A DNA stretch of 64,000 nucleotides from Lactobacillus sp. ESL0785 (lineage in GTDB: Bacteria; Bacillota; Bacilli; Lactobacillales; Lactobacillaceae), in assembly GCF_029395455.1 (NCBI RefSeq), contig NZ_CP113916.1, forward strand, positions 1,240,001 through 1,304,000. Direction: 5' to 3'. Below, piece by piece: positions 9,269 through 27,256 of this stretch (positions are counted from its first letter, which is position 1; the number at the start of each line of letters is the position of its first letter). Position numbers and translations under genes: made by a program. The notes below the pieces were generated by a model. The model saw nothing but the letters and a program-made list of their open reading frames with translations. It was not told the DNA's origin and ran no database searches.

Positions 9269-9340
9269 ATAATTATCTTCCATTCATAAGTTTTTATTAT
9301 TAGCAATTATATTTTCCAATTTCACGCGATATATTTATTG

Positions 9341-9383
9341 TGATATGTTTATCAATGTAAGCGCTACAAAAATATCGATATTT
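9341..9383. promoter_or_regulatory. Operator-like palindromes between LysR gene and flavoprotein gene
   Basis: Three symmetric elements stand in a row: TGATA-N4-TATCA (9341-9354), TGTAAGCGCTACA (9356-9368, also cre-like but one base short of the consensus) and the perfect palindrome AAATATCGATATTT (9370-9383). They are the likely LysR (and perhaps CcpA) control region for both divergent genes. Confidence 0.5.
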
Positions 9384-9432
9384 ATTTACGCTACTTAAAA
9401 TAATTCATTTAATTATGAAAGGCAAATTGAAA

Positions 9433-10959: not shown

Positions 10960-11028
10960 TTTGTCTTTTCCATGATGAATTTTCACCAGGTCAAAATAAT
11001 ATGCTAAAATGGTTTCTAGGTGAAAAAT

Positions 11029-12954
11029 ATGATAATTGCACAAGGACACGATTTAGAAAAACAATTCGGTGCCAATACTTTATTTAAACACGTCAACTTT
11101 TCAATTGATGCAAATGCACGGATTGGACTCGTTGGTCCCAATGGAGTTGGCAAGACCACTCTACTTAAAATTATGACCGGTGAAGAAGATGCAACTCACG
11201 GCGAGTTTACCATTAATAAGGGAATCGACGTTGGTTATATTGCTCAGGAAAATAGTCTAAATGAAGATAAAACAATCTGGAATGAAATGCTGGAGGTTTT
11301 TACGCAACTAATCAAGATAGGTGAAAGAATTGCTGTCATGCAAGAAAAAATCGCTAATCATCCTGAAGACAAAGCCTTACTTAAGCAGTATGATCAGATG
11401 CAGTTTAACTTTGAACAGCAAGGCGGTTACACTTATCAAGCAGATATTAAGAGCATTCTCAACGGCTTTAACTTTCCGGAAACGACTTGGTCTAAAGTAA
11501 TCGGCAGTCTTTCTGGTGGGGAAAAAACGCGATTAGCATTTGTTAAATTATTATTACGCAAGCCACCACTATTGCTGCTTGATGAGCCCACAAACTATTT
11601 AGATCTTGATACATTAGATTGGTTAGAAAACTTCCTTAAAGGATATGCTGGTGCAATTTTAGTTGTTTCTCATGATCAGTACTTTTTAGATCACTTAGCC
11701 AACCAAATTTTCGAATTACAATTTGGTAAATTGACACCTTTTAAAGGTAACTATTCGAATTACGTTGCACAGCGTGAGCTTCGCGACCGCCAACAAGAAG
11801 AAGCTTACGAAAAACAACAAGATAAGATTAAAAAAGATGAGGAATTCATTCAAAAAAATATTGTACGGGCAACAACTACTAAACGAGCACAAAGCCGCCG
11901 TAAGCAATTAGAAAAAATTGAACGAATTAAGCCACCGAAACACAAAAATAAGGTGCGAATTAATTTCAAAAGTGAACGACCATCAGGCAAGGAAGTACTC
12001 ATTCTCAACCACTTAACAATTGGTTACCCTACTAAGACAATGGTTAAAGATATTTCATTTCAAATTAACAAGGGTGATCGAGTAGCTGTTATTGGTCCTA
12101 ACGGCATTGGTAAATCAACCTTGCTTAAGACCATTATGAAGGAATTAAAATCCAAAGCTGGTTCTATTAAATACGGTGCCTCGCTTGATATCGGCTATTA
12201 CGACCAAGAATTACAGGGCTTAGAACAGGGGAAAACTGTTCTTGATACTATCTGGGATAGACACAAAACAATGCCTGAGCGTGATGTCCGCTCAATCCTT
12301 GCTAGCTTTTTATTTACTGCTAAAGATATTGATAAGACTGTCGGCCAATTATCCGGTGGGCAAAAAGCCCGCTTGACTCTAACTGTCTTGTCGCTTGAGC
12401 ACAATAACTTCTTACTGATGGATGAACCAACCAACCACTTGGATATTGAAGCTAAAGAAGTGCTAGAACAAGCTTTGCAAAAGTTCGACGGTACCTTGCT
12501 CTTTGTTTCCCATGATCGGTACTTTATCAATCAACTAGCGAACAAGATTGTTGCCGTCAAAGATAATCATGCCCAAATTTACGAAGGTAACTATTCGTAT
12601 TACTTAGATGAACAGGCTAAACAAACTGCTGCTAATACCGTAACTCCCGCTAATCAGAATGCACAAGTAGAAACAACAGCTGCTAATTCCACTAAACTAT
12701 CTTATCAAGAGCAAAAGCAACGCGACTCGCAAAAACGCAAATTGCAACGTCAAGTAGAAGATGTTGAAGCCAAAATTGAAGAATTAGAACAAAAAGAGCA
12801 AGACATTCAAACCCAAATGGCTAATCCCGACATTGCTTCTGACTTTGGCAAATTAGGACCATTGCAAGAGGACCTAACGGCCACGCAGACCGAATTAGAT
12901 AAGGCCAATGAAGCTTGGGAACAGGCATTAACCGAGTTAGATAATTTTGAATAA
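11029..12954 (+). CDS. ABC-F family ATPase (Uup/EttA-like)
   Basis: The 641-residue protein carries two ABC ATPase domains and no membrane segment. Walker A motifs are GPNGVGKT (about residues 36-43) and GPNGIGKS (about 356-363); signatures are LSGGEKTRL and LSGGQKARL; both are followed by DEPTN. A charged linker joins the domains and the last ~100 residues form a coiled coil, as in Uup-like members. ABC-F proteins act on the ribosome in translation or antibiotic protection. AGGTGA 5 bases before ATG 11029 fixes the start; GTG 11020 overlaps that site. The last codons are duplicated at the far end of the island (25996-26043). Confidence 0.92.
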   Translation: MIIAQGHDLEKQFGANTLFKHVNFSIDANARIGLVGPNGVGKTTLLKIMTGEEDATHGEFTINKGIDVGYIAQENSLNEDKTIWNEMLEVFTQLIKIGERIAVMQEKIANHPEDKALLKQYDQMQFNFEQQGGYTYQADIKSILNGFNFPETTWSKVIGSLSGGEKTRLAFVKLLLRKPPLLLLDEPTNYLDLDTLDWLENFLKGYAGAILVVSHDQYFLDHLANQIFELQFGKLTPFKGNYSNYVAQRELRDRQQEEAYEKQQDKIKKDEEFIQKNIVRATTTKRAQSRRKQLEKIERIKPPKHKNKVRINFKSERPSGKEVLILNHLTIGYPTKTMVKDISFQINKGDRVAVIGPNGIGKSTLLKTIMKELKSKAGSIKYGASLDIGYYDQELQGLEQGKTVLDTIWDRHKTMPERDVRSILASFLFTAKDIDKTVGQLSGGQKARLTLTVLSLEHNNFLLMDEPTNHLDIEAKEVLEQALQKFDGTLLFVSHDRYFINQLANKIVAVKDNHAQIYEGNYSYYLDEQAKQTAANTVTPANQNAQVETTAANSTKLSYQEQKQRDSQKRKLQRQVEDVEAKIEELEQKEQDIQTQMANPDIASDFGKLGPLQEDLTATQTELDKANEAWEQALTELDNFE

Positions 12955-12960
12955 CAAAAA
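12913..12960 (+). repeat. 48-bp direct repeat, left copy (3' end of ABC-F gene)
   Basis: From GCTTGGGAACAGGCAT to GATAATTTTGAATAACAAAAA, 44 of 48 bases match 25996-26043; the four differences cluster in an 8-base middle part. It covers the last 14 codons, the stop and 6 bases beyond. It marks the left border of the glycoside island. Confidence 0.9.
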
Positions 12961-12974
12961 GTAAATTACAATCT

Positions 12975-13010
12975 AAACCCCGAAATTAGGACAACCTGAT
13001 TTCAGGGTTT
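12975..13010 (+). terminator. Terminator after the ABC-F gene
   Basis: AAACCC, GAAAT and AGG pair with CCT, ATTTC and GGGTTT around an ACAA loop, with single mismatches between the helices, followed by TATTTTG. Confidence 0.85.
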
Positions 13011-13042
13011 TATTTTGACTAAATTTTGGAACAGATAAAAAG

Positions 13043-13073
13043 TTGGGATTCTGACTGAAAGAAAAAATCCCAA
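13043..13073. repeat. Inverted repeat in the island's left flank
   Basis: TTGGGATT and AATCCCAA are exactly complementary with a 15-bp spacer. The role is unknown; it may be a second weak terminator or a relic of the junction. Confidence 0.4.
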
Positions 13074-13138
13074 AGTTAGCTACACTAATTTCGAGATTTT
13101 TAAATTTTATTGATCATTAAACTTGCTATCAATTAATT

Positions 13139-13276
13139 TTATTTATTATCAGCGATAACATAAGCAACATGTTTACCAGAATAAAAGACAGAGCCTGCTT
13201 CGGTTCCTGGCATATTTGGACCATAGGTATCCCTAATTAACATTCCAGCTGAGTCATTACCAGCCAGAGCAAAAAA
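13139..13276 (-). pseudogene. C-terminal remnant of a fumarate reductase-type flavoprotein
   Basis: About 45 codons, ending in TAA at 13139-13141, read AGNDSAGMLIRDTYG, then PGTEAG and YSGKHVA, which is the conserved FAD-binding C-terminus of the FAD_binding_2 family. Upstream of 13276 the similarity stops and no start codon or ribosome binding site exists, so the rest of the gene is gone. It differs from the end of the intact flavoprotein at 9433, so it is not a local copy of it. It lies just inside the left border of the island and looks like debris from the rearrangement. Confidence 0.75.
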
Positions 13277-13346
13277 GCAAAATTATACTATGCAGTTAAT
13301 TTATTTGAAAAGCAACAAATCTAAACCTCTAAAACAATTCGTTAAA

Positions 13347-14816
13347 TCAATCAAAATAATTTTCTATTGTAATAAACATACATCCATTAGCAGGAATTAC
13401 CGTTTTAATTTTTCCATTCTCACAATTAAGTTTTTCAACTTTTAAAGATGATGCTTCATCTAATTCCTTGATCTGGCTTAAAGTAAGATACTCAGGCACC
13501 CCTATTTCTTGCCAATATCCTTTTGCGTTAGCATGATCATCATCAATTCTAATTGAGCTTACTTTTTGATTATAATCTTTTTCTATATCAATTAAAATTT
13601 CTAAGTCACTTATTTCTTCTGTTGGTACATTGTGATTATATATAATTAACTGAACCGCTCCGTTTTTCTTTACTGCTAACATCTCAGCTGTTGCTTCAGG
13701 TTGCGAAGATGTTACTTGTAAACGGATATTTCCTAATTGATGGAATAGTTCAAAAATTCGATATGCAGGTTTAGCAATACCCTGATATGTTTGCAAACCA
13801 AAACCACCATGAAATACATTTGGCTTTTGAAATTGTTCTTCAAATATATCTGAAAAAGTCCAAAATGAATAGCCATCAACTAAGCCATCATTGTCAGCCA
13901 ATGTCTTAGCAATCATTGCAGAAGCATAAGGCTCATCATGAATGCTATCCCCAAGCATAGCAGATACGTTCCATTCCGTATAATAAAGCGGATAATTTTT
14001 TGCTTGCTGCTTAGTTTTTTGCGTCATTTCTTTAAGAACACCTCGCGGATATTTTGCATCTCCACCGTGTGTCTTACTAAAATATTCTTCAATATCCATT
14101 CCACTTTTCCATAGTGGATCATCTGTTGGATAATGATGGGTAGATATAAAATCTAAAGGTACAGCATTTTCTTCACAAAAATCTATCATCTCTGGAATCC
14201 ATGAATTAAAGGAAGTTGCAGGACCACCAACTTTTAAATTACCATTAATCGCTTTAATTGCTCTTACAGTTATTTCATACAAATGAAAGTAATCATTTTT
14301 ATTTCCCGCAAAGAATAATGGTAAGTTTGGTTCGTTCCAAATCTCGAAAAACCAAGATTCTACTTCTTCTGTGCCATATCTTTTTAAAACATGTTTGATA
14401 AATTTACTAATTAATTCTTGCCATTTTTCATCAGACTTAGGCATAGAATTGTTACCACCGTAAGGGAATATTTTTCCTTTACTAGATGCCAAACATTCAG
14501 GCATGAACCCTAACTCTACAAAAGGTTTCATACCTATTGAAAGCAAAAAATCAAAAATAGTGTCAATATTTTCAAAATTATAAATCATACCATGTGAAAT
14601 TCCATCAAACCCGGTCATTTCTGTGCAGATGCTCATTTCATCATCAAAAATACCGTGAAAACGCACATATTTAAATCCTAACTCTCGATGTGCTTTCTCC
14701 AATTGTTTCTGATAGTCAGCCCTTAAAGCTGTATATGCGTGACTACTACCAACACATAATTCCCAATAATGAGGAAAACTACGCTGCTCTTTTGAATTAA
14801 CCTTAAAATTTATCAT
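13347..14816 (-). CDS. GH39 family glycosidase, beta-xylosidase-like
   Basis: This 489-residue enzyme of the GH39 clan-A fold has the acid/base in IWNEPN (E162) and the nucleophile in YYTEWN (E281), both intact, with the family motif VRFHG near residue 51. No signal peptide is present, so it acts in the cytoplasm. GH39 members release xylose or, less often, other sugars from the non-reducing end of short chains or plant glycosides. AAAGGAG 6 bases before the ATG supports the start. It is the last gene of the MFS-esterase-GH2-GH39 operon, 11 bp after GH2. The sugar specificity is not proven. Confidence 0.85.
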   Translation of the reverse strand: MINFKVNSKEQRSFPHYWELCVGSSHAYTALRADYQKQLEKAHRELGFKYVRFHGIFDDEMSICTEMTGFDGISHGMIYNFENIDTIFDFLLSIGMKPFVELGFMPECLASSKGKIFPYGGNNSMPKSDEKWQELISKFIKHVLKRYGTEEVESWFFEIWNEPNLPLFFAGNKNDYFHLYEITVRAIKAINGNLKVGGPATSFNSWIPEMIDFCEENAVPLDFISTHHYPTDDPLWKSGMDIEEYFSKTHGGDAKYPRGVLKEMTQKTKQQAKNYPLYYTEWNVSAMLGDSIHDEPYASAMIAKTLADNDGLVDGYSFWTFSDIFEEQFQKPNVFHGGFGLQTYQGIAKPAYRIFELFHQLGNIRLQVTSSQPEATAEMLAVKKNGAVQLIIYNHNVPTEEISDLEILIDIEKDYNQKVSSIRIDDDHANAKGYWQEIGVPEYLTLSQIKELDEASSLKVEKLNCENGKIKTVIPANGCMFITIENYFD

Positions 14817-14827
14817 TAGAAACTCCT

Positions 14828-17275
14828 TTATAGTTGTGTAGTTATGGATAATCCAGTTTCAGTTTTCACATTCAAACTGACCACTTCTTTTCCTGTTCGC
14901 TCTATAATAATTAATGCTCTACCCTGATAAGTATTACTACTCTTATTATTCAATTCTGTTATAGGTTTAGGATTTCCACTACCAACTGCTAAAATCTTTG
15001 CATTTCCTGAAACAACTTCAACAGTGAACAGGACATCTTCATCTGTTATCGTTGTTCCTTGATCATCGACTAGCTTCACATCGATATAAGATAGATTATG
15101 ACTCTCATGAAAATCTAACTGATTAAATAACGTCTCAGGTTTTAATTTCAATTGTGTAGCTCCCTGAGCTGAAAGTAACTCTGTCCTTGCTAATTCCTTT
15201 CCATTATCGTAAGATACTGCAACTAATTCGCCTTTAACATAATTTGTTTCAAACAAAGTACGATAATTAACTTTCTCTCCTGCAGGCTTTCTTCCTAAAC
15301 TATGACCATTTAAAAATAATTCGACTTCAGTTCCTCCGCTATAGACTTCCACAATTAATTTAGAATTTTCAGGTACATCCCATGACCAGCTTGATACGGT
15401 ATCACTCAAAATCCATGGAGTTAACTGAACTTGCTTTCCATAATGATGTGGGTCCTGTACTGCAATATATGGAGCTTGACGTAAGCCAAAGACAATTTCA
15501 CGATAATAAGAGATAGGTCTTCTAAAACCAATTAAGTCGAAATCACCAACATTAGAAGTTAAAATTGGAAATTTTGCACCAAAGCCACCATCACCAAAAT
15601 GATAACTAGGGACGCCAACACCGGCCTCACCTAAATAGTCCCAACCAGTCCAAGTAAAGTCTCCAATTACCTGTGATAATTTCAAGACATTATTCCAATT
15701 ACGAGCAATTTCTGGTGGATAAGTTTCACTGCCTACCATAATTTGATTAGGATAAGAATCACTATCTTGTTTGTATCTTGCTCCCATATAGTTATAACCA
15801 ACTATATCAATTTGAGCAGCTACCTTTTTAATTTGTTTAGAAATAGCTGGATCGGTAACTATTTGATCAAGATACTTATCCATATATGTCATAAATTCAT
15901 TTACATTTTGATCACTTAACTTCTTTTTTTCTTGCTTATATGTAACATTAACAATGATTTTCAACAAATCAGTTCCGACAGTGTACATACCATTAATAGC
16001 GGCAAGAGTATATCTTGTATCATCAAGTTTCTTAATCAAGCTATTGATTTGTTCGCAAATTTTCAACCCCTGATCAGTTGCAATCTCTGGAATTTCATTA
16101 CCAATAGAATACAAAATAACGCTAGGATGATTAAAGTCCTTTTTAGCCATTGCTGCTACGTCGTTATGCCAATCAGAAGAAAAATTAAGGCTATAATCAT
16201 AATCAGATTTACTTCGATTCCACATATCAAAAGTTTCATCCAAAATATACATTCCTAATTCATCACAAGCACGAAGAAGTGCTGGTGCAGCCGGTTGATG
16301 AGCCATTCTAATAGCATTAAAGCCAGCTTTTTTCAGTAAGTATATCTGACGATAAGAATTTTTTTGTAATGTCATAGAACCCAGTAAACCACTGTCATGA
16401 TGAATTGCAGCACCTCTTAACTTAACTGAGTTTCCATTAACTGCAAGTCCATTAATGGGATCTAAAGTTAATTGCCTGATACCTGTAACTACTTTTTCTT
16501 CATCAGCCAAATCATTATTTTCTAATAATCTAAAGTCCACTGTATATAGGTTCGGATGTTCCGCATCCCATAATTTAGGTTGATTAACATACAATCGCTG
16601 TCTTAAATTTCGCTTTTCATTGGCAAACAGGACTACTTGAGATTCTTCCTTGGTAACTACTTTGTTTTCGTTATCATAGACAATTGTTTGTAAACAAAAC
16701 TCATTCTTATATCCTGTATTATTAATCGTTATCTCTGCTTGCAAAGTAGCAAGTGAATTCGTAATTGATCTTGTCTTAACAAAAATATTATCAGAGCAAA
16801 TATAAGTACTACCACTAGTTAATAAATAAACGTCACGATAAATACCAGCTCCAGAATACCAACGACTGTTGGGCTCTGCACCTGATTTGGTCACGACACG
16901 TATTTCATTATGCTTATCAAAGTTTAAATAATCATTTAAATAAACATAGAAATTCGAATAGCCATAATGATTTTGACCTGCTAACTGACCATTAACAAAA
17001 ACTTGAGCATCTTTATATACTCCCTCGAAATTCAAAATAAAATTTTGATTAATTTGATTTTGTGTAACAAATAGGTCTTTCGTATAAACAAAAGTTCCGC
17101 CATCATAATAGCCTGTATTCCCACCGTTACTACTATTCTTATTTCGTTTACCCATTATCATTGCATCATGTGGTAGCGTAACTTTTTGTGCATTATCTGG
17201 AGTTGTCCAAACTAACGAAAACGAATTTTTATCTTCCCAAAAATACCAATCTTTATTCCAATTTTCTTTTTTCAT
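14828..17275 (-). CDS. GH2 family glycoside hydrolase (beta-galactosidase/beta-glucuronidase type)
   Basis: The 815-residue protein has the GH2 layout: N-terminal sugar-binding jelly roll (about 1-155), Ig-like domain, TIM barrel (about 280-580), then a DUF4982-like and further beta-sandwich region. The acid/base is E394 in GNE and the nucleophile E517 in VGSETY. Long GH2 proteins of this build act on beta-galactosides or related plant-derived beta-glycosides. No signal peptide, hence intracellular. It lies 11 bp before GH39 and shares its operon; a weak terminator separates it from the upstream esterase gene. The exact substrate is open. Confidence 0.87.
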   Translation of the reverse strand: MKKENWNKDWYFWEDKNSFSLVWTTPDNAQKVTLPHDAMIMGKRNKNSSNGGNTGYYDGGTFVYTKDLFVTQNQINQNFILNFEGVYKDAQVFVNGQLAGQNHYGYSNFYVYLNDYLNFDKHNEIRVVTKSGAEPNSRWYSGAGIYRDVYLLTSGSTYICSDNIFVKTRSITNSLATLQAEITINNTGYKNEFCLQTIVYDNENKVVTKEESQVVLFANEKRNLRQRLYVNQPKLWDAEHPNLYTVDFRLLENNDLADEEKVVTGIRQLTLDPINGLAVNGNSVKLRGAAIHHDSGLLGSMTLQKNSYRQIYLLKKAGFNAIRMAHQPAAPALLRACDELGMYILDETFDMWNRSKSDYDYSLNFSSDWHNDVAAMAKKDFNHPSVILYSIGNEIPEIATDQGLKICEQINSLIKKLDDTRYTLAAINGMYTVGTDLLKIIVNVTYKQEKKKLSDQNVNEFMTYMDKYLDQIVTDPAISKQIKKVAAQIDIVGYNYMGARYKQDSDSYPNQIMVGSETYPPEIARNWNNVLKLSQVIGDFTWTGWDYLGEAGVGVPSYHFGDGGFGAKFPILTSNVGDFDLIGFRRPISYYREIVFGLRQAPYIAVQDPHHYGKQVQLTPWILSDTVSSWSWDVPENSKLIVEVYSGGTEVELFLNGHSLGRKPAGEKVNYRTLFETNYVKGELVAVSYDNGKELARTELLSAQGATQLKLKPETLFNQLDFHESHNLSYIDVKLVDDQGTTITDEDVLFTVEVVSGNAKILAVGSGNPKPITELNNKSSNTYQGRALIIIERTGKEVVSLNVKTETGLSITTQL

Positions 17276-17297
17276 TGAAATGTACTTCTTTCATAAC

Positions 17298-17325
17298 AAA
17301 AAGTGTGCTTTAAACGCACACTTTT
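17298..17325 (-). terminator. Partial terminator between esterase and GH2 genes
   Basis: GTGTGC and GCACAC, flanked by A and T runs, form a small hairpin directly after the esterase stop. It probably lowers rather than stops read-through into GH2. Confidence 0.7.
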
Positions 17326-17327
17326 AT

Positions 17328-18293
17328 TTACTTGATTTTTTCTTGCATTTTTTCAAAATCGCTTTTTTCTGGTAAATCAAGGGCAAAATATTTTTCCAAC
17401 CATTTAGTACACAAAGTCGTCCATTGACCAACTTTTGGATTTATTTGTGACTTTGCTTCGGCAACCGCTTGAGTACCTAAACTTAATCCATGACCACCTT
17501 CACCAAAAATATGAATTTCATAAGGAACTTTATGTTCTGCTAATACTTTTGCTAAGTTTAAAGAATTAATTGGCGTAACCAAAGGGTCAGTAGCAGTCGT
17601 CCAGATAAAGAACGGAGGTGTATCAGTATCGACATGATCAACAGGACTCACTTTCCATTCTGTTTCCTCATCAGGAAATTCTTGACCCAAAAAGGCAACA
17701 TTTGAAGCTTTCATAAATGCATAATCCATTGGTGAGTTCTTTTTAGCTTTTACATCCTGATCCAATAAATGATAATCAGTAATCGCATAGCCTAAAATTG
17801 TGGCTGCTGGACGTAATTCTTTTGCAGTAGCTCCCAAGTAATCAGTCAGAACTGGCTCATTAAACACAGTTGAATACAATGCTGCAACATGGCCGCCTGC
17901 TGAAAAGCCACACACTCCGATTCTTTTAGAATCAATGTGCCATTTTTCAGCATTCTTCCTTATCAGCAACATTGACTGTCCTAATTCTCGTATTTGTTTC
18001 GGATATTGTGATTCTTTCTTTTCTGGTAATGGCTTAGATAAATCTGGCATAGCTAAACTACCTTTAGCATAAGTTGTATATCTAAGTACAAAAGTATGGT
18101 AACCCTGATTAGCAAAATACATTGCAACAGGTTCAGCTTCACGATCAGAACAACTAAAATATCCTCCTCCTGGACAAATAATTAATGCTGGCCGTGGTGT
18201 TCCTTTAAGCATTTCATGTGAATCATCTAATAAATATGCTGTTAAAGTAACATCAGGATTATTTTTATTTAAATTAAATTTTTTAATTTGCAT
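17328..18293 (-). CDS. Alpha/beta-hydrolase, acetyl (xylan) esterase-like
   Basis: The 321-residue protein has the lipase-type elbow GFSAGG (nucleophile S131), the oxyanion segment PGGGY (about 41-45), an acid in TATDP and a C-terminal histidine in GGHG. It matches the family of cytoplasmic carbohydrate deacetylases found in xylan and plant-glycoside clusters. Lying between an MFS importer and GH2/GH39 genes, it likely removes acetyl groups from imported sugars so that the hydrolases can act. GAGG before the ATG supports the start. Confidence 0.8.
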   Translation of the reverse strand: MQIKKFNLNKNNPDVTLTAYLLDDSHEMLKGTPRPALIICPGGGYFSCSDREAEPVAMYFANQGYHTFVLRYTTYAKGSLAMPDLSKPLPEKKESQYPKQIRELGQSMLLIRKNAEKWHIDSKRIGVCGFSAGGHVAALYSTVFNEPVLTDYLGATAKELRPAATILGYAITDYHLLDQDVKAKKNSPMDYAFMKASNVAFLGQEFPDEETEWKVSPVDHVDTDTPPFFIWTTATDPLVTPINSLNLAKVLAEHKVPYEIHIFGEGGHGLSLGTQAVAEAKSQINPKVGQWTTLCTKWLEKYFALDLPEKSDFEKMQEKIK

Positions 18294-18320
18294 AATTTTA
18301 CCTCACAATAATTAGATTTT

Positions 18321-19502
18321 TTAATTTGCTCGTTTAGCAATTTGATTACCAAATCTTGTAACAAAGAGAATTGCTGCCACAGCAATAGAAATACAAATTC
18401 CAAAGATAAAAGAATTGAATCCTGGTTGAATTTTAATTGCTGCAAGCATCAAAGGAACAATCATTCCTGCAATAGATGAAACCAATGTATTAATTGAAAT
18501 TGCCACAGTAAAGTGTTTTTGATCAGCTAAAGTTGACAATTCGAATGGAACAGTGGCATTAACCATCACAATTCCCATACCTGAAAACATATTTCCTAAA
18601 ACATGCATAACTACGTTAGTAGAGAAAATAATGCAAGCAAAAGAAAGTGCAAAAGCAATGAATCCCCAGGCAATAGTATCATTTTTAGTAAGTTTTCTTA
18701 TATAAGTGAGTACAGCCGCAGTTATAATCCCTCCGATATTACCAACAGCTATAACAGTTGCTGTATAAGCAGTACCTTTACCTTGACTAGCGAGGCAAAT
18801 AGATTGATTAGCTAAAAAAGTCATCATTGCAATTGATAAGAAGAACGTTATTAAGTAAATAAAATAAACAAAGGGATCTAAACTCTTCAAAAGTGAAAAT
18901 ACACTTTCTTTATTACCACTATTTTCAGTTTTACTTTGGTCCAACTTTTTATCTTTAGGAATTAAAACGTATGCAATTACAAAAATAATTAATCCTATTC
19001 CATAAACCCAAAATAGATTACGCCAATTTGTCCCACCAAGCATACCACCTAAAAATGTAAACAACATCATACCTATATTGTTTGCACCAGCTGACCAACC
19101 CATAACGGTTGCACGATCTTCACCATCAAAGTTTTCCTGAATCAAAACTGGAACAACATTACTAATTACACCTGTACCAAAACCCAGCAAAACCATACAT
19201 GCTAAAATCAAATTTAAGCTATTGCTATATAAGGCAGGAATTAAACCTGCAATCGCAGTTATTGCAACTGAAATTACACCCATGTTCTTTCGTGTAAATC
19301 TAAAAGCAAGCCAACTAAAAAATGCAGTCGCAATAATTTGTCCTAACTGTGGAATTGAGCCTATTAATTGAACCTTAGAAATTGGTTCTCTTGGAAATGA
19401 TTTTGCAATTGCAGCTATTGCAGAGCCAGCTGTTGATGTCGACATTAACATTAAATTCATGCTCAGCATACCAACTGCAGCAGTTAATTTCTTCTTTTCC
19501 AT
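18321..19502 (-). CDS. MFS transporter of the glycoside island (putative importer)
   Basis: This 393-residue protein has about 12 hydrophobic helices, the MFS signature in the 2-3 loop (AFRFTRKNMG) and FGTGVISNVVPVLIQE in helix 4. It is the first gene of the operon with the esterase, GH2 and GH39 and is preceded by AAAGGAG and a cre-like site. Because the hydrolases are all cytoplasmic, import of a short glycoside is the most natural role; export is not ruled out. No PTS or ABC sugar system is in the island. Confidence 0.8.
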   Translation of the reverse strand: MEKKKLTAAVGMLSMNLMLMSTSTAGSAIAAIAKSFPREPISKVQLIGSIPQLGQIIATAFFSWLAFRFTRKNMGVISVAITAIAGLIPALYSNSLNLILACMVLLGFGTGVISNVVPVLIQENFDGEDRATVMGWSAGANNIGMMLFTFLGGMLGGTNWRNLFWVYGIGLIIFVIAYVLIPKDKKLDQSKTENSGNKESVFSLLKSLDPFVYFIYLITFFLSIAMMTFLANQSICLASQGKGTAYTATVIAVGNIGGIITAAVLTYIRKLTKNDTIAWGFIAFALSFACIIFSTNVVMHVLGNMFSGMGIVMVNATVPFELSTLADQKHFTVAISINTLVSSIAGMIVPLMLAAIKIQPGFNSFIFGICISIAVAAILFVTRFGNQIAKRAN

Positions 19503-19515
19503 TTTATCTCCTTTT

Positions 19516-19529
19516 TGTTTACGCTTTCA
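19516..19529 (-). promoter_or_regulatory. cre-like site (CcpA) at the MFS operon start
   Basis: On the minus strand TGAAAGCGTAAACA matches the catabolite-responsive consensus at 13 of 14 positions. It sits between the promoter and the ribosome binding site, so CcpA would act as a roadblock when glucose is present. Confidence 0.65.
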
Positions 19530-19532
19530 ACG

Positions 19533-19576
19533 ACAAATTAAGTTTATTATTTTAATTTGTAGATAGCTATATTCAA
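19533..19576 (-). promoter_or_regulatory. Promoter and inverted-repeat operator of the MFS operon
   Basis: On the minus strand TTGAAT (19571-19576) and TAAAAT (19549-19554) are spaced 16 bp. A perfect 9-bp inverted repeat, ACAAATTAA-N10-TTAATTTGT (19533-19560), covers the -10 box and start point. A repressor rather than an activator would be expected to bind there. Confidence 0.55.
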
Positions 19577-19680
19577 AAATCAGAGATAATCTATTCATTT
19601 CCCAGATTCATTTTAAATCTTAATCACATAAATAATTAAAAAGTACGGCATTATATATGCCACTAAAGCCGTTAACAGAG

Positions 19681-20694
19681 CTATTTTTTAATTTCTTTTC
19701 GATACTCAGCCGGTGACATACCAAAATATTTTTTAAAAATCTTATAAAAGTATGATGGATTTTCATAACCAACTTTATTAGAAATTTTTGCTATAGACGC
19801 ATTTGTATAGCTTAAATACCTTGCTGCTACATTCACTCGTTGCAAATGAACTAAATTGATAAATGTTTTCCCGGTGTGCTTTTGCAAATAATCAGACAAA
19901 TAATTGGGATTAAAGCCAAAATTATCTGCCATTTTTGTAAGAGTGATGTCCTTATAATTTCTTTCAATATATAGCAATAATGAAAGAAGATTGTTCTTTT
20001 GGCGCTGATTACTTTTTACCTTGATATCAGAGTAATTGACTTGACGAATTAAGCGAGAAAACAAAGTCAACATTTCCAGTTTAATAATTTGATCTGATTG
20101 AATCTCTGGAAAATAGTATTCGCCAATAATGTCATAAACTAAGTCGACTATCTTTTGATTATGATTTATTTCAAATAAGCTGTAACGCCCTTCCCCATAC
20201 TCTTCATCCGATAATAAAGAAAAAAGCAAGTTTGAAATTGCCGAACTACTCTCTTTTGCTTGCAAAAAATTCAGTTCATTTAAAGAAAAAGCCGAGGCTT
20301 TTAAAGCTATGTTTATAACAATTCCCTTCTTGCTAATTGGTTTAACCTGATGAATTGTCTGGTTACCCATGAAAATAATATCCTCTTGCTTAACTTTAAT
20401 CTTAGTATGCTCTAAAACAATCTCACAGTCTTCAACTAGTGGAATCATAATTTCCACATAATCATGGATATGAAAAGGAATAAATGATTCAACTGGTTGA
20501 AGAGAGATAGTAATTGCACTACTATTCAAAATTAAATCATCCGAATACGTATCATAAAATTGATATACTGGCTCGCAATCTATCATTCGTACTCTATGAG
20601 CTATTTTCCCATTATCTTTAATTTCTGCAAAAACATCATCCCAGCTTCGCTGATGATTTTTTGTACGTAAATAATTAATTAGCTTATTAGTCAA
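19681..20694 (-). CDS. AraC-family transcriptional regulator
   Basis: The 337-residue protein has an N-terminal cupin-type sensing domain (about 40-160, with HIHDYVEI) and two C-terminal helix-turn-helix units (about 235-335) ending in the family signature GYENPSYFYKIFKKYFGMSPAEYR. The start is TTG at 20694, preceded by AGAGGG at a proper distance. It is divergent from the GH3-GH78-pgmB operon and upstream of the MFS operon on its own strand, so it is the likely inducer-responsive regulator of both halves of the island. Confidence 0.9.
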   Translation of the reverse strand: MTNKLINYLRTKNHQRSWDDVFAEIKDNGKIAHRVRMIDCEPVYQFYDTYSDDLILNSSAITISLQPVESFIPFHIHDYVEIMIPLVEDCEIVLEHTKIKVKQEDIIFMGNQTIHQVKPISKKGIVINIALKASAFSLNELNFLQAKESSSAISNLLFSLLSDEEYGEGRYSLFEINHNQKIVDLVYDIIGEYYFPEIQSDQIIKLEMLTLFSRLIRQVNYSDIKVKSNQRQKNNLLSLLLYIERNYKDITLTKMADNFGFNPNYLSDYLQKHTGKTFINLVHLQRVNVAARYLSYTNASIAKISNKVGYENPSYFYKIFKKYFGMSPAEYRKEIKK

Positions 20695-20731
20695 ATTTTT
20701 CCCTCTTAGCCATACTATAAATCTGTGAAAT

Positions 20732-20750
20732 AAACACAGTTCTTGTGTTT
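20732..20750. promoter_or_regulatory. Inverted repeat in the AraC/GH3 divergent control region
   Basis: AAACACA-N5-TGTGTTT is a perfect 7-bp inverted repeat. It overlaps a possible -35 (TCTTGT) that is 17 bp from TACTAT, the likely promoter of the GH3 operon, and is a candidate binding site for the AraC-type protein. Confidence 0.45.
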
Positions 20751-20831
20751 TTTAACGATAGCATACTATTAAACAGTAAGATAAACTAAACCTAAATTCA
20801 ATAATTATTAAACAATGGATAGAGGTAAACT

Positions 20832-22535
20832 ATGACAGATTTAACTAAAAAGCCTTACAATTTAACCACTGAACAAATTGAATTTGTTCAAAAAAAAGTT
20901 GCAAGCATGACAATGGATGCTAAGATAGGTCAGTTGTTTTTCGTAATTGGTCAAGATGAAGATACAACTAATCTAAAGGACTTCATCAATAAATATCAAC
21001 CAGGTGGAATTATGTATCGACCTGATAAAGCTAAAAAATTACAGCATGAAATTGAAACCATTCAAAAAGAAAGTGAAATTCCACTATTTATTTCTGCTAA
21101 TCTTGAAGCTGGTGGTAATGGCTTAATCAGTGAAGGCACTTGGTTTGCTCGCCCAATGCAGGCAGCTGCAACTAATGATCCGCAATCAGCTTATAATCTT
21201 GGCGATGTTTCTGGATATGAAGCCAAACAAGTTGGTGGAAATATGTCATTTTCGCCAATTGTTGATCTTGATGAGAATTTTCGTAATCCCATTATGAACA
21301 CACGTACTTTTGGCAGTAATGAAGACACTGTTATCAAAATGGCTGACGCAGAAATTAACGGTTTGAAAAACAATAATATTATTCCTGTCGCTAAACACTT
21401 CCCTGGTGATGGTGTTGATGAGCGTGATCAACACTTACTCAGTTCAATTAATTCTTTATCCGCTGAAGACTGGATGGAATCTTATGGTCAAATTTATCAT
21501 CATTTAATCGAAAATGGCCTGCCAAGTATCATGATTGCTCACATCATGCAGCCTGCTTGGGAACGAAAATTAGAGCCAGGAATTGAAGACAAGGATTTAC
21601 GGCCAGCCACTACTTCCAAATTGCTGATTAATGGTTTATTACGTAAAGTTTTAAAATTTAATGGTTTAACAATTACTGATGCAACTCCAATGATTGGTTA
21701 CAATGCCATCATGCCTCGTTCCAAAGCTCTGCCAACAACAATTAACGCTGGAATTGACATGATTTTATTCAATAAAAACATTGATGAAGATTATCAATTT
21801 ATCAAAGATGCAGTAAATGACGGTACTCTTTCAGTAAAGCGAATAGATGAAGCAGTCACACGAATAATCGCCACCAAAGTTGCCCAAAAAGTAATGAATA
21901 CCAACTGCGAATTACTTGAACCAGTACCAGCTAAGTTTGATCTGAAATTGGCTGAACATGAAAAGCTTGCTGCTGAAGTTGCTAGAAAATCTGTAACTTT
22001 AGTTAAAGATAGGGACCAAATTCTGCCTATCACTCCTCAAAAATATCCACGCTTACGCCTTGTTGTCTTAGGCGATACTGATGATGGTGGCTTTAAAGAA
22101 GGCGGCCAAGTAACTGCTAAGTTCAAGAAAAAGTTGGAAGCACTTGGATTTCAAGTTTCAGTATTTGACCGAAAAAATTTAGACTTTTATGAAGTGTTTG
22201 AAGGCGGTCTGCAAGACGAAAAGAACAAATTCGACCTTGCCTTATACATTGCAAATGTGGAAACGGCTAGCAATCAAACCACAACCAGAATTGATTGGAT
22301 TCACCTAATGGCAGCTGATGCACCTTGGTTTATGCGCAGCATTCCAACTGTCTTTGTATCAATGTGCAATCCATATCACCTGTTCGATATTCCAATGGTT
22401 TCGACTTATATCAATGCTTATACTGGAAATGATGTGACCATCGATGCGGTTTTACGGAAATTAATGGGTAAAGAAAAATTCTTGGGTCATAATCCTGTTG
22501 ATCCATTCTGCGGTCGCTTTGAAACCAGACTATAA
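20832..22535 (+). CDS. GH3 family glycosidase with NagZ-type His/Asp dyad
   Basis: The 567-residue enzyme shows the GH3 motifs KHFPGDG (188-194) and the nucleophile aspartate in TITDATP (D283). The stretch D199-Q-H201 matches the Asp-His pair that serves as acid/base in NagZ-like GH3 enzymes in place of a glutamate. A second domain (about 400-567) is present as in two-domain NagZ relatives. It may be a beta-N-acetylglucosaminidase or a beta-glucosidase; some GH3 enzymes with this dyad are phosphorylases. No signal peptide. AGAGGT before the ATG sets the start. It leads the operon with GH78 and pgmB. Confidence 0.83.
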   Translation: MTDLTKKPYNLTTEQIEFVQKKVASMTMDAKIGQLFFVIGQDEDTTNLKDFINKYQPGGIMYRPDKAKKLQHEIETIQKESEIPLFISANLEAGGNGLISEGTWFARPMQAAATNDPQSAYNLGDVSGYEAKQVGGNMSFSPIVDLDENFRNPIMNTRTFGSNEDTVIKMADAEINGLKNNNIIPVAKHFPGDGVDERDQHLLSSINSLSAEDWMESYGQIYHHLIENGLPSIMIAHIMQPAWERKLEPGIEDKDLRPATTSKLLINGLLRKVLKFNGLTITDATPMIGYNAIMPRSKALPTTINAGIDMILFNKNIDEDYQFIKDAVNDGTLSVKRIDEAVTRIIATKVAQKVMNTNCELLEPVPAKFDLKLAEHEKLAAEVARKSVTLVKDRDQILPITPQKYPRLRLVVLGDTDDGGFKEGGQVTAKFKKKLEALGFQVSVFDRKNLDFYEVFEGGLQDEKNKFDLALYIANVETASNQTTTRIDWIHLMAADAPWFMRSIPTVFVSMCNPYHLFDIPMVSTYINAYTGNDVTIDAVLRKLMGKEKFLGHNPVDPFCGRFETRL

Positions 22536-22553
22536 AAGAAAATGTGATAGGAA

Positions 22554-25376
22554 ATGCAAATTTTAGAAATTTCAATCAATCATATGCATGAACCAATTGG
22601 TTTTGATTTTGGCAATAGTATTCGAATAGAATTTAGCGCTGAAGTTGAAAACAAAGTTGATTCGGTTCAAAAAAGATTAATTATTAAAACAGATAGTCCT
22701 ATTTTTGATTCATCTTGGCAAAGTTACGACAATAATGTTTTTGATGAGACTATCCCCTTAAAGCCTCGCACTCGCTACACAGTAACCGTTCAATTAAAGC
22801 AAGCCGATAAAATTAGCGAAGGTTCAACATTTTTTGAAACAGGAAAAATGTCTGAAATTTTTAAAGGTAAATGGATTGGTAACTCAAACAGTAATTTACA
22901 AAATACACTATTGCGGAAACATTTTAAAATTGAAAAACCAATTAAAAGTACTCGATTATACATTACTGGTCTTGGTTTATATGAAGCCTACCTTAATGGT
23001 AAAAAAATTGGTAATGAATTTCTTGCTCCTGGTGTAACAGCCTATGATAAATTAATCCAAGTCCAAACTTACGATATCGACAATCTTGTAACTAATAACT
23101 TACAGCAAGAACTGCTAATTTCTCTTGGTGATGGCTGGTATAAAGGAAATTTTGGCTTCGATGGTGGTAAAGATAATATTTACGGCTCAAGACAAATGGC
23201 ATTAGCTGAACTACACATTAACTACCAAGATGGTACAAGTGATGTGATACTAAGCAACCATTCATGGCAAACAACTGCTGGGAAGATCACTAAATCCGCA
23301 ATTTATTATGGTGAAGATTATGATGACAGAATCGCCATTACTAATTGGCAACCAGCAGTAGAAATTGATCATTCATTTGCACCTTTGCATGATCGCCTAA
23401 GTTTGCCAATTAAGAGTCATGAATTTTTACCAGTTAAGAAAATTATCCATACTCCAAAAGGAGAAACTGTTTTAGACTTTGGTCAGAACCATGCAGGTTG
23501 GCCAGAATTCTTAAATCACGAACCTACTGGAACAACTGTTAAATTGCAAATGGGAGAAATATTGCAAAACGGTAACTTCTATCGCGACAATTTACGTGAG
23601 GCCAGAGCTAGTTTCGTTTATACATCGGATGGCAAAGAAAAATGGGTGCGGCCTCACTTTACTTACTATGGTTATCGCTATGTCAAAGTTACGGGATTGA
23701 CTAAACCGATTTCTGCAGCTGATTTTCGCTCAAATGTTATGTACTCTGACATGAAAATCACTGGCGGCATTATTACAAATAATTCAAAAGTTAATCGTTT
23801 GTTTCAAAATGTTCTTTGGGGACAAAAGAGCAACTTTATGGATGTACCAACAGACTGCCCTCAACGTGATGAACGCTTAGGCTGGTCTGGAGATGCGGAT
23901 GTCTTTTCAGAAACAGCTGTTTTAAACATGAACAGTTATGCTTTCTTTAAAAAATATGCTAAAGATATGCTGATTGAACAAAACGAACATCATGGTATGC
24001 TAACAATGTACGCCCCAGCTATGGGTGCCAATGATGGTGGTGCTGCCGTTTGGGGCGATGCCGCTACTATTATTCCGTGGACAGCATATTTATCTACTGG
24101 TGATCCTGCAATTTTAAGACAAAATTATTCAGGAATGAAAGCATGGGTTGACTGGATTAATGCTCACAGTTCAACATCAAACCTATGGACTGGTCAATTT
24201 CAATTTGGAGATTGGCTTTCACTAGATGGTGAAAATCCTGCACTTCCAACTGGCAAAACAGATGAGGACTTTATTGCTTCAGTATATTACTATTATTCAA
24301 CCTTAATTGTCTCCAAAACAGCTAAAATACTTAAACTCAAAACAGACGAAGCTGATAAATATTTAGCAAAGGCTAAAAAAATAAAGGAAGCAATTCGTAA
24401 AGAATACATTACTCTAAATGGTCGGTTAGCAATTGATACCCAAACTGCTTACGCATTAGCTCTATACTTTAATTTAGTTCCAGAAGACCAAAAGAAGCGA
24501 GTAGTAACTGACTTGATTACTAGACTAGATAAAGATAATAATCATCTTAAAACAGGCTTTGTTGGTACGCCAATAATTTGTCAGGTCTTATCAGATAATG
24601 GGTATCATAAACTGGCAACGCAAATTTTCTTAAATGAAGATTTTCCAAGTTGGTTATATGCAGTTAACTTAGGAGCAACGACAGTTTGGGAAAGATGGAA
24701 TTCTGTATTACCTGATGGTTCAATGAATCCTGAAGGAATGAATTCGTTAAATCATTACTCCATTGGGGCAATTATGCAGTGGGCATACAAATATGTTTTG
24801 GGACTTAGAGAACAAACAAATGGTTATCAAAATGTCCTGCTTTCACCACAATTTGACTATCGCTTAAAACATGTTATTGGCTTTTATGAAAGCTCTTATG
24901 GTCAATTAAAAGTAGATTATCAATTGGAAACTGACGAAAATCATACCGTAAAAATGAGACTTGAAGTTCCGTTTGGACAAACAGTTAATTTAAAGTTACC
25001 TAACTATCAAGAAGGTAGTATTAAAGTTAATGGATTAAAGAAGAATGACGAGTTAACTTTAACAAACGGTATATTTAATATCACTTTTATACCTCAAAAT
25101 AGCTATATTGAATATTATACTTTAAATATGCCAGTTAAATTATTAATGAGTGATTCAGAGTTACTTACACAGCTGACACCAATTAATTCAGTATTTTTAT
25201 TTCTTAAAGACAAGACAAACTTAGATAATTTGGGTTCAATGTCATTAAAACAACTAGATACCATGCTACCCTTTATTAATATTTCCGATACTGACTTCAG
25301 TAAAATTGAACAGATATTAAATCAAACACCATTACCAGAAGAAAGGAAGTTTTTGCATGAAAGGCGTTCTCTTTGA
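22554..25376 (+). CDS. GH78 family alpha-L-rhamnosidase
   Basis: This 940-residue protein has N-terminal beta-sandwich domains (about 1-400) with the motif LDFGQNHAGW and an (alpha/alpha)6 barrel whose catalytic segment DCPQRDERLGWSGD lies at 434-447. Such enzymes release L-rhamnose from flavonoid and other plant glycosides or pectin fragments. It lacks a signal peptide. About 75 residues after the usual C-terminal beta domain form an extra helical segment of unknown role. It starts 18 bp after GH3 and overlaps pgmB by 20 bp, so the three are co-translated. No rhamnose pathway genes are in the window. Confidence 0.9.
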   Translation: MQILEISINHMHEPIGFDFGNSIRIEFSAEVENKVDSVQKRLIIKTDSPIFDSSWQSYDNNVFDETIPLKPRTRYTVTVQLKQADKISEGSTFFETGKMSEIFKGKWIGNSNSNLQNTLLRKHFKIEKPIKSTRLYITGLGLYEAYLNGKKIGNEFLAPGVTAYDKLIQVQTYDIDNLVTNNLQQELLISLGDGWYKGNFGFDGGKDNIYGSRQMALAELHINYQDGTSDVILSNHSWQTTAGKITKSAIYYGEDYDDRIAITNWQPAVEIDHSFAPLHDRLSLPIKSHEFLPVKKIIHTPKGETVLDFGQNHAGWPEFLNHEPTGTTVKLQMGEILQNGNFYRDNLREARASFVYTSDGKEKWVRPHFTYYGYRYVKVTGLTKPISAADFRSNVMYSDMKITGGIITNNSKVNRLFQNVLWGQKSNFMDVPTDCPQRDERLGWSGDADVFSETAVLNMNSYAFFKKYAKDMLIEQNEHHGMLTMYAPAMGANDGGAAVWGDAATIIPWTAYLSTGDPAILRQNYSGMKAWVDWINAHSSTSNLWTGQFQFGDWLSLDGENPALPTGKTDEDFIASVYYYYSTLIVSKTAKILKLKTDEADKYLAKAKKIKEAIRKEYITLNGRLAIDTQTAYALALYFNLVPEDQKKRVVTDLITRLDKDNNHLKTGFVGTPIICQVLSDNGYHKLATQIFLNEDFPSWLYAVNLGATTVWERWNSVLPDGSMNPEGMNSLNHYSIGAIMQWAYKYVLGLREQTNGYQNVLLSPQFDYRLKHVIGFYESSYGQLKVDYQLETDENHTVKMRLEVPFGQTVNLKLPNYQEGSIKVNGLKKNDELTLTNGIFNITFIPQNSYIEYYTLNMPVKLLMSDSELLTQLTPINSVFLFLKDKTNLDNLGSMSLKQLDTMLPFINISDTDFSKIEQILNQTPLPEERKFLHERRSL

Positions 25377-26037
25377 TTTAGACGGCGTTATTGCCGATAC
25401 ATCAATTTATCATTTTCAAGCATGGCGTAAACTAATTAAGGATCACTTTTCATTAAACTTACCTAATGAATTGGAACAACAAACTAAAGGTGTTAGTCGA
25501 GCAGATTCCTTAAAAGCTATCCTGAATTTTTTAAATATTAATGTTAGCAAAGAACAATTTGAGCAATTAGCCGCTGAAAAAAATCAAACATATCAAAAGT
25601 TACTAAACAACTTAACTCCAAAAGATATTTTACCTGGAATCCAAAAATTAATTAATGATTTTAAGAGCCATGATGTCAAGCTTTCTCTTGCTTCTGCAAG
25701 TTTAAATGCTCCTTTAATTTTAGAAAAATTAGATTTACGGCAAGATTTCGATGCAATAGCTAACCCAAATGAAGTTAAACTTGGAAAACCTGCACCAGAT
25801 ATTTTTCTTCAAGCTGCAAAAGAAATTGACGTGCAGCCAAAAGATTGCGTTGGCATTGAAGATTCGATTGCCGGAATTAATGCAATCAATAGTGCTGGCA
25901 GCTTATCAATTGGTGTAGGGGAAAAGGAAGAATTAAATAAAGCAAAATTATTATTTCCAACAACAGCAGACTTAAATTACAGCCAAATCGAAATGGCTTG
26001 GGAACAGGCATCAGCCAAATTAGATAATTTTGAATAA
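25357..26037 (+). CDS. pgmB: Beta-phosphoglucomutase with an ABC-F-derived C-terminal tail
   Basis: A 226-residue HAD enzyme converting beta-glucose-1-phosphate to glucose-6-phosphate. The phosphorylated aspartate D7 and acid/base D9 lie in FDLDGVIAD, followed by the cap-domain motif YHFQAW typical of beta-phosphoglucomutase. AAAGGAAG precedes the ATG, which overlaps the GH78 end. The last residues WEQASAKLDNFE are nearly those of the ABC-F protein (WEQALTELDNFE), encoded by the 48-bp repeat, so the native C-terminus was replaced at the island border. No GH65 or other inverting phosphorylase gene is nearby to make its substrate. Confidence 0.88.
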   Translation: MKGVLFDLDGVIADTSIYHFQAWRKLIKDHFSLNLPNELEQQTKGVSRADSLKAILNFLNINVSKEQFEQLAAEKNQTYQKLLNNLTPKDILPGIQKLINDFKSHDVKLSLASASLNAPLILEKLDLRQDFDAIANPNEVKLGKPAPDIFLQAAKEIDVQPKDCVGIEDSIAGINAINSAGSLSIGVGEKEELNKAKLLFPTTADLNYSQIEMAWEQASAKLDNFE

Positions 26038-26043
26038 CAAAAA
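25996..26043 (+). repeat. 48-bp direct repeat, right copy (end of pgmB)
   Basis: Matches 12913-12960 at 44 of 48 positions, in the same reading frame including the stop. Because a terminator facing tsaD follows at once, this copy probably sits where the ABC-F gene originally ended. Confidence 0.9.
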
Positions 26044-26077
26044 AGACGAAGAAGTTAAGTATTTCCTCGTCTTTTTT
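26039..26077. terminator. Bidirectional terminator between pgmB and tsaD
   Basis: Six A plus GACGA pair with TCGTC plus six T around a 17-base loop; it serves both convergent transcripts. Confidence 0.85.
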
Positions 26078-26086
26078 AATTTGTTT

Positions 26087-27136
26087 TTATTCTAACATAC
26101 TCTTAGCATATGGTAATTCTAACGATGGGTCTGCATTCAATGTTAAATCTGCAAATTGACCTTCATTATACAAATTATAAGCCGCTGCACCAATCATTGC
26201 TGCATTATCACCACACAACTTAAGACTAGGTAAAATTACTTTAGGCGCCATTTTTGATGGTAATGCCGCAATTTCGTGCTGCATGCGGTCACGCAAGCCA
26301 AGATTAGCAGCCACACCGCCTCCCATAATAAAGGTCTTAGGCTGATACTGCTTAATTGCCCGTATAGTTTTATGAGCCAAAACATCTACAACTGCTGCTT
26401 GAAAACTTGCAGCTAAATCATACTTATTCAACTCCTGATGAATTTGGTCAGCATGATGACAAGTATTGATAAACGCACTCTTTAATCCAGAAAAAGAAAA
26501 ATCATAATCATTATCTTCCATCATTGCCCGGGGGAAGTTAAAAGTATCTTGACCTTGATGGGCCCATTCATCAATTGTTTTACCCGCTGGGTACTTTACG
26601 CCGAGAACTCGACCAATCTTATCATAAGCTTCACCAGCGGCATCATCGCGCGTATCACCTACAATTTCAAAATGAGTTGGATCCTTTAATAGAACAATTT
26701 CGGTATGCCCACCTGAAACTTGCAGAGCCAAAGCTGGATACGTAATCTCATCTGTTAACTGTGCAGCCATAATGTGCCCCATAATATGGTCAACGCCGAT
26801 TAGCGGAATTCCAGTTGCCATTGATACTGCCTTAGCCGCACTAACGCCAATTAATAACGCGCCAACAAGTCCAGGACCATAAGTTACAGCAATCGCATCA
26901 ATATCATTCCAATTTATATTTGCTTCAACTAAGGCTTCTGTCGTAATCTGACTAATTACTTCAATGTGATGACGACTAGCGACTTCTGGCACTACACCGC
27001 CAAAGCGCTGGTGACTTTTAATTTGAGTAGCAACTATTAAACTCTCAATCTCACGACCATTTTTAATTACTGCAGTTGAAGTTTCATCACAGGAACTTTC
27101 ATAAGCTAAAATACGAATATCTTTTTGTTTATTCAA
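26087..27136 (-). CDS. tsaD: tRNA N6-threonylcarbamoyladenosine synthase subunit TsaD
   Basis: TsaD (349 residues) transfers the threonylcarbamoyl group to A37 of ANN-reading tRNAs, working with TsaB (and TsaE). The ASKHA fold start [12 protein letters not shown], the metal ligands H117 and H121 in DHIMGH and the GGGVAAN glycine motif are all present. The start is TTG at 27136, which overlaps the stop of a small upstream frame (see 27133); AAAGGG lies 9 bases before it. It belongs to the minus-strand unit tsaB-(rimI remnant)-tsaD. Length and motifs are normal. Confidence 0.96.
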
Positions 27137-27237
27137 AACTTAATCCCTTTCTTTTTCCGTTCTGGCAGCATTTTCAACACCAGCAAACCATTCTTTACTA
27201 CCTCTTGATCGCAATTAATACGGCCAACGAATTGATC
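27133..27237 (-). pseudogene. Probable C-terminal remnant of rimI between tsaB and tsaD
   Basis: A 34-codon open stretch, bounded upstream by a stop and with no start codon signal, ends in a TGA that overlaps the tsaD TTG. Its text (VGRIN, then KNGLLVLKMLPE) looks coding and is compatible with the end of a RimI-type N-acetyltransferase, the gene that sits between tsaB and tsaD in many lactobacilli. The match is weak by eye; the position is the main argument. Confidence 0.4.
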
Positions 27238-27256
27238 TCAAAAATAATTAATATTT

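Follow-up and report, generated by a model that had tools for sequence, protein, structure and literature searches.

Background

How did a block of glycosidase genes come to lie between an ABC-F ATPase gene and tsaD, with the 3' end of the ABC-F gene present a second time, 13 kb away, as the end of another gene? The question is raised by the window analysed here, a stretch of 64,000 nucleotides (G000:C1:1240001-1304000) from the genome of Lactobacillus sp. ESL0785, which consists of one contig of 1.69 Mb. The original prediction, made from this sequence alone, was that about 13.1 kb of carbohydrate genes had entered at the ABC-F 3' end by recombination, regenerating that gene and giving pgmB an ABC-F tail. 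The locus was compared with a set of one genome per species. Its features are collected in Table 1.

Table 1. Features of the ABC-F/tsaD locus in the window
Feature	Position	Strand	Basis or remark
ABC-F ATPase gene, bordering the slot on the left	11020..12954	+	ORF
Left repeat copy, the ABC-F gene's own end	12913..12960	+	Sequence comparison
IS3-family element, 5'-end remnant, with terminator-like hairpin (12982-13003)	12965..13083	+	Genus-repeated core
Flavoprotein gene end remnant (13135-13264) and LysR gene end remnant (13265-13357)	13085..13357		Intact in G033
GH39 glycosidase	13347..14816	-	Pfam PF01229
GH2 glycosidase	14828..17275	-	Pfam PF02836, PF00703, PF02837
Esterase-like alpha/beta hydrolase	17328..18293	-	Pfam PF20434 BD-FAE
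MFS carrier	18321..19502	-	Pfam PF07690
AraC-type regulator	19681..20694	-	Pfam PF12833
GH3 glycosidase	20832..22535	+	Pfam PF00933
GH78 alpha-L-rhamnosidase	22554..25376	+	Pfam PF17389, PF08531, PF05592
pgmB, beta-phosphoglucomutase-like HAD phosphatase, with grafted tail	25357..26037	+	Pfam PF00702, PF13419
Right repeat copy	25996..26043	+	First at least 9 bases native to pgmB, remainder (from 26005 to 26014 on) ABC-F derived
Terminator hairpin	26039..26077	+	Same one behind ABC-F in island-free G056 and G049
tsaD, bordering the slot on the right	26087..27136	-	ORF

Results

The border repeat

The two copies of the border repeat are identical at 44 of 48 positions without a gap, and the distance between them is 13083 bp, in agreement with the predicted second copy at the end of pgmB about 13 kb away. 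The predicted degree of identity and reading frame hold, but what recurs is 13 codons, the stop and six further bases, rather than the last 14 ABC-F codons plus stop. In frame, the ABC-F copy reads AWEQALTELDNFE and the pgmB copy AWEQASAKLDNFE, each followed by the stop codon. Elsewhere in the window, the best match to the 48-mer is 26/48 on the forward strand and 27/48 on the reverse strand. Two gene ends might be alike by chance, considering that relatives of pgmB natively end in AWE and that the ABC-F gene happens to have AWE near its end. Against this, the best 48-mer match in 200 simulated windows of the same length (first-order Markov) is 31/48, and the likeness of the two copies extends beyond the stop codons. 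The probability of a chance origin is thus practically nil, and it is rejected; the border repeat is real.

The slot between ABC-F and tsaD

ABC-F was found in all 61 genus genomes searched (in G041 as a distant paralogue only), and tsaD in 73 of 75. The nearest named relatives of the window's ABC-F are those of Lactobacillus sp. ESL0701 and ESL0679, followed by L. apis. Slot lengths were taken from 53 of the 61 genomes, after setting aside G041 (no true ABC-F match), five in which the two genes lie on different contigs and two with no tsaD match. In all 53, which have both genes on one contig, the two face each other; the gap is below 150 bp in 12, 150-1000 bp in three, and from 1 to 26 kb in the other 38. 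The two genes had been expected to be direct neighbours in related lactobacilli. Since they are so in 12 of 53 genomes, G056 and G049 included, adjacency is one common state, but not the rule; and since the slot measures at least 1 kb in 38, the island sits in a general cargo slot. The content between this one pair of core genes varies across many genomes, as in a hotspot. The slots read number 41 of the 53, including 33 of the 38 of at least 1 kb, with those of the window, G052 and G033 among them.

In the island-free sister species G056 and G049, the ABC-F stop is followed by an A run, a GACGA-GAAG...CTTCCTCG hairpin, and tsaD, with 50 to 54 bases in all. This is the empty-site junction foreseen from the window, whose right border has the same terminator. 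The tsaD-facing hairpin stands behind the right repeat copy only, again as foreseen; the left copy is followed by a different terminator-like hairpin inside the IS remnant.

Two side observations concern neighbouring arrangements. In G010, the slot (L082:3781-4210) holds no cargo genes, although the IS remnant still follows ABC-F and half of the terminator is left in front of tsaD; it looks as though it had been emptied by deletion. A RimI-like acetyltransferase gene, present between tsaB and tsaD in relatives including G033, G049 and G052, is missing at 27137-27256 in the window, and no homologue was found in the whole window genome at E 1e-5; G015 is likewise without it between tsaB and tsaD.

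The left border

A 126-bp query from the left border (core 12976-13025) matches somewhere in 38 of 75 genus genomes. Four of six fetched copies of the core directly precede a reading frame that is 328-473 residues long, and the frame behind the L152 copy, the one scanned, contains rve and HTH_21 domains. The core is therefore the start of an IS3-family element. The remnant is common to the window, G052 and G010 at 83-88% identity. Between the window and G052 it is 83.5% identical over 103 bp, far below the 96-98% found between araC and GH3, and it is regarded as old.

The recently exchanged DNA begins near 13085 (27 bp at 96%), about 125 bp inward of the left repeat copy, and the recently shared span extends from approximately 13085 to 26013. 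The flavoprotein and LysR remnants at its left end are about 2.2 kb shorter than the G033 version, at 90-91% identity. A second LysR and flavoprotein gene pair lies directly left of ABC-F (8381-10917). The window's ABC-F contains no stretch of island-like identity (75-90% in 150-bp steps), and the left crossover is not visible. A clean insertion bounded by the repeat is rejected, because neither ABC-F nor the IS remnant shows the island's identity level. Of the predicted entry of 13.1 kb at the ABC-F 3' end, the addition of carbohydrate genes at this place therefore stands, but the clean bounding by the repeat does not.

The position of the IS3-family remnant directly 3' of the left copy raises the alternative that such an element beside ABC-F captured the cargo. 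A second IS end, however, was not recognised at the right border. Elements of the IS3-family type duplicate few target bases, as against 48 bp here. Capture by the element is accordingly regarded as very improbable.

Cargo and exchange between lineages

The predicted cargo would be in keeping with utilisation of plant glycosides, rhamnose-bearing ones among them; the homologues of the last gene carry the name beta-phosphoglucomutase. A rhamnosidase-inducing bee-gut Lactobacillus species is described as deglycosylating rutin (PMC8456714). The two systems share a rhamnosidase gene in a bee-associated Lactobacillus; the two genes may differ, and the cluster of the window is at most a candidate for acting on rutin.

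The araC-GH3-GH78-pgmB block also occupies this slot in G052 and G033, with 93-94% DNA identity to the window, and the GH39-to-esterase part is 92% identical to G033. In contrast to the island, the flanks of these genomes are only 81% (ABC-F), 82-83% (tsaD) and 78% (genes beyond) identical to those of the window. With 100% support, a tree built from five core genes groups G056, G049, G052, G033 and G010 in a clade that excludes the window. The identity step, together with the tree, indicates that the island was exchanged between lineages. Between G052 and G033, the divergence is 3.7% in the island and 4.3-6.1% in the flanking DNA.

In 15 other genomes, a GH78 gene 66-70% identical to that of the window has pgmB right behind it, on a contig other than that of tsaD or far from tsaD. 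The block is near pgi in three of the four such genomes opened, and directly adjoins it in one. Such a GH78 occurs once in the window genome, whose pgi (714989) is half a megabase off. Among plasmid records, 59 match the island in part; identity is 60-80% in 58 and 80-90% in the remaining one, and none of the 59 covers more than 80% of the island query; in the phage collection, 39 records match pgmB, all below 60%. Given the low identity and partial coverage, carriage of the island by known plasmids or phages is rejected.

The best plasmid matches are in Melissococcus plutonius. One of its plasmids (L131:11979-20219) has araC, GH3, rhamnosidase and pgmB in this order, followed by a beta-xylosidase gene, with matching DNA of about 70%. 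This similar gene order suggests that the rhamnosidase operon may travel among bee-associated bacteria.

The graft on pgmB

In most relatives of pgmB, AW and a short run of residues close the protein, AWEKFNLN and AWEEFK being examples (85 of the 120 homologues listed, of 343 in all), and LDNF, DNFE, DEFE and ELDN are absent from the last 16 residues of these 120. The repeat therefore begins with AWE codons that pgmB had of its own, while ABC-F has AWEQA near its own end, and the graft comprises the last 30-39 bp of the repeat. The predicted ABC-F tail of pgmB is upheld as a graft, except that the first codons of the repeat belonged to pgmB already. The full ABC-F-like tail occurs in none of the 27 pgmB relatives located elsewhere, which indicates that ABC-F sequence was grafted onto pgmB. 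A tailed pgmB common away from ABC-F, named in the original prediction as evidence against itself, was therefore not encountered among these relatives. Endings vary in both families: the L118 pgmB has the unusual end AWQNFNQNSN, and the ABC-F tail varies somewhat across the genus, a few genes, including that of G015 (L088 region), ending in EF or NF before the stop, without the final E.

At the slot, an ABC-F-like pgmB end is present in three copies, whole in the window and apparently decayed in G052 and G033. The protein ends are AWEQASIK in G033 and AWEQASIR in G052, and from that point to beyond the stop the DNA is still similar to the end of ABC-F. Scored against the ABC-F end of G049, G033 reaches 26.5 and G052 22, as against 13 or less for 27 other pgmB genes; against a composite ABC-F end, the scores are 26.5 and 24. 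Beyond the first 18 bases, the score of G033 against the composite is reached by none of 792 gene ends and that of G052 by two, the 792 being what remained of 845 ends after 53 with ABC-F- or pgmB-like protein ends had been excluded beforehand. Of 5000 shuffles of this part, two reach the G033 score and none the G052 score. In an earlier control with a coarser exclusion, which possibly included ABC-F or pgmB ends, the full scores were reached by 2 to 7 of 437 ends, and those of the later part by 1 to 5, or by up to 40 of 437 when compared with G052's own ABC-F end.

These ends are read here as one old graft that appears to have decayed by small indels in G033 and G052 and to have stayed whole in the window; it is possible that the tail in G033 and G052 is instead a native pgmB end with a chance likeness. 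A CAG in both window copies corresponds to CAA in ABC-F of the five nearest relatives and in pgmB of G052 and G033, a difference suggesting an origin of the right copy within the lineage of the window.

The apparent tail remnants in G052 and G033, the sharing of the IS remnant with G052 and G010 at the identity given above, and a tree in which the five near relatives form a clade without the window would also suit an ancestor that already had the island between two ABC-F ends, with G056 and G049 having deleted the DNA between the copies. The island, however, is much more alike than the flanks between the window and G052 or G033, so it was not simply inherited, and exchange with island-free alleles predicts the empty sites equally well. 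Such an ancestral island seems unlikely.

Absence of a recurring repeat and of an integrase

When whole slots are searched for a second ABC-F tail, the score is 39 in the window, 22.0 in G052 and 19.5 in G033. The latter two barely exceed the shuffle maxima of the same slots (20.5 and 18.0 in 40 shuffles each), and they fall within what is reached by another slot's shuffles (22.5) and by the reverse strand (20.0). In the 33 other slots of at least 400 bp, the scores range from 9 to 17 and the per-slot shuffle maxima from 11.5 to 22.5; L093 and L135 score slightly above the 40 shuffles made of each, at sites distant from tsaD. No convincing second tail was found in these 33 slots, 30 of which measure at least 1 kb; within them, the search at other island borders proposed originally thus came back empty. 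The contrast between 9-17 in the other slots and 39 in the window means that the repeat does not serve the slot as a standing docking site.

Some integrative elements use the 3' end of a gene as att site. As in such elements, a gene 3' end is doubled at the borders here and the gene regenerated; unlike in them, no integrase was found, the repeat does not recur in the other slots and the left edge of exchange lies elsewhere. An integrase since lost might have integrated a circular molecule at the 3' end of ABC-F, the repeat being attL and attR, and the foreign genes flanked by a gene-end repeat, the regenerated gene and the precise empty site speak for this. On the other hand, as originally noted, no integrase was found in the slot: none of the nine slot proteins scanned contains an integrase domain (Pfam), and five integrases of the same genome, among the PF00589 matches listed, match none of 41 of the 53 slots. 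The nearest integrase of the genome is about 140 kb from the slot, and the recently exchanged DNA starts away from the left copy. The L145 slot matches an IS3-type transposase.

With no convincing second tail in 30 slots and no integrase match in 41, an att site is unlikely. Of the usual marks of an integrase island, the recombinase gene and the recurring att repeat were not found and the precise empty site is present; the last is also expected from allele exchange. Insertion by a lost integrase is considered quite unlikely, and the att site was dropped as the main reading.

Discussion

On balance, it is probable that this integrase-free slot turns over by recombination among related lactobacilli, mostly at the flanking core genes, and that one short-homology join took place in it. 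From the observed slot, empty-site junction, tail, absence of the tail from pgmB relatives elsewhere and identity step, we infer the following join, order of events and direction of transfer. A rhamnosidase operon ending in pgmB would have been joined to an island-free chromosome. The native pgmB 3' end would have offered at least 9 bases (GCTTGGGAA, up to 16 in the genes of relatives) matching the ABC-F 3' end. At this match, a crossover or a join by short homology would have fused the last ABC-F codons, the stop and the terminator in frame to pgmB, leaving the upstream ABC-F whole. The joined island would then have been exchanged between the lineage of the window and that of G052 and G033, in the latter of which the tail would have decayed. 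GCTTGGGAA is present both in native pgmB ends, such as that of L105, and in ABC-F. The repeat is thus probably a fossil of the recombination that placed the island.

A further function of the graft may be imagined, in which it is a homology arm borne by the cargo, so that a tailed island could dock behind ABC-F in other, related species through ordinary recombination and leave without a scar, the tail replacing an att site where no integrase exists. If true, this would account both for the clean empty sites seen in G056 and G049 and for the passage of the island from species to species, but we regard it as a distinctly doubtful extension of the recombination account.

The slot resembles the integrase-free hotspots described by Oliveira et al. 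2017 (PMC5635113) in its variable cargo, conserved core flanks, lack of an integrase and exchange among relatives. It differs in that plain double recombination in core genes leaves no fused tail, whereas the window keeps one border join inside the cargo. For this join, the closer parallel is homology-facilitated illegitimate recombination (PMC3240628, PMC5361080), in which one side is homologous, the other is joined at a short match, and a 3' end is orphaned; orphaned 3' ends arising by such joins are proposed in these reports for Vibrio and Rhs arrays. The short sequence shared at one join, GCTTGGGAA, is of the kind that this process uses. The difference is that in the window the process is not observed and its anchor side cannot be located. 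Judged by title, no published account of a tsaD/ABC-F hotspot in Lactobacillus or of a bee-gut rhamnosidase island was found.

Conclusion

The event at this locus is of a known kind, well preserved and unusually legible. A long in-frame repeat of a gene end is no proof of an integrase. Integrase-free hotspots rarely reveal how their cargo entered, whereas here the join seems readable from the short match, the fused tail, the empty site of the sister species and what looks like a decayed form in two further species. The locus may thus serve as a test case for the swapping of sugar-use genes among related lactobacilli.
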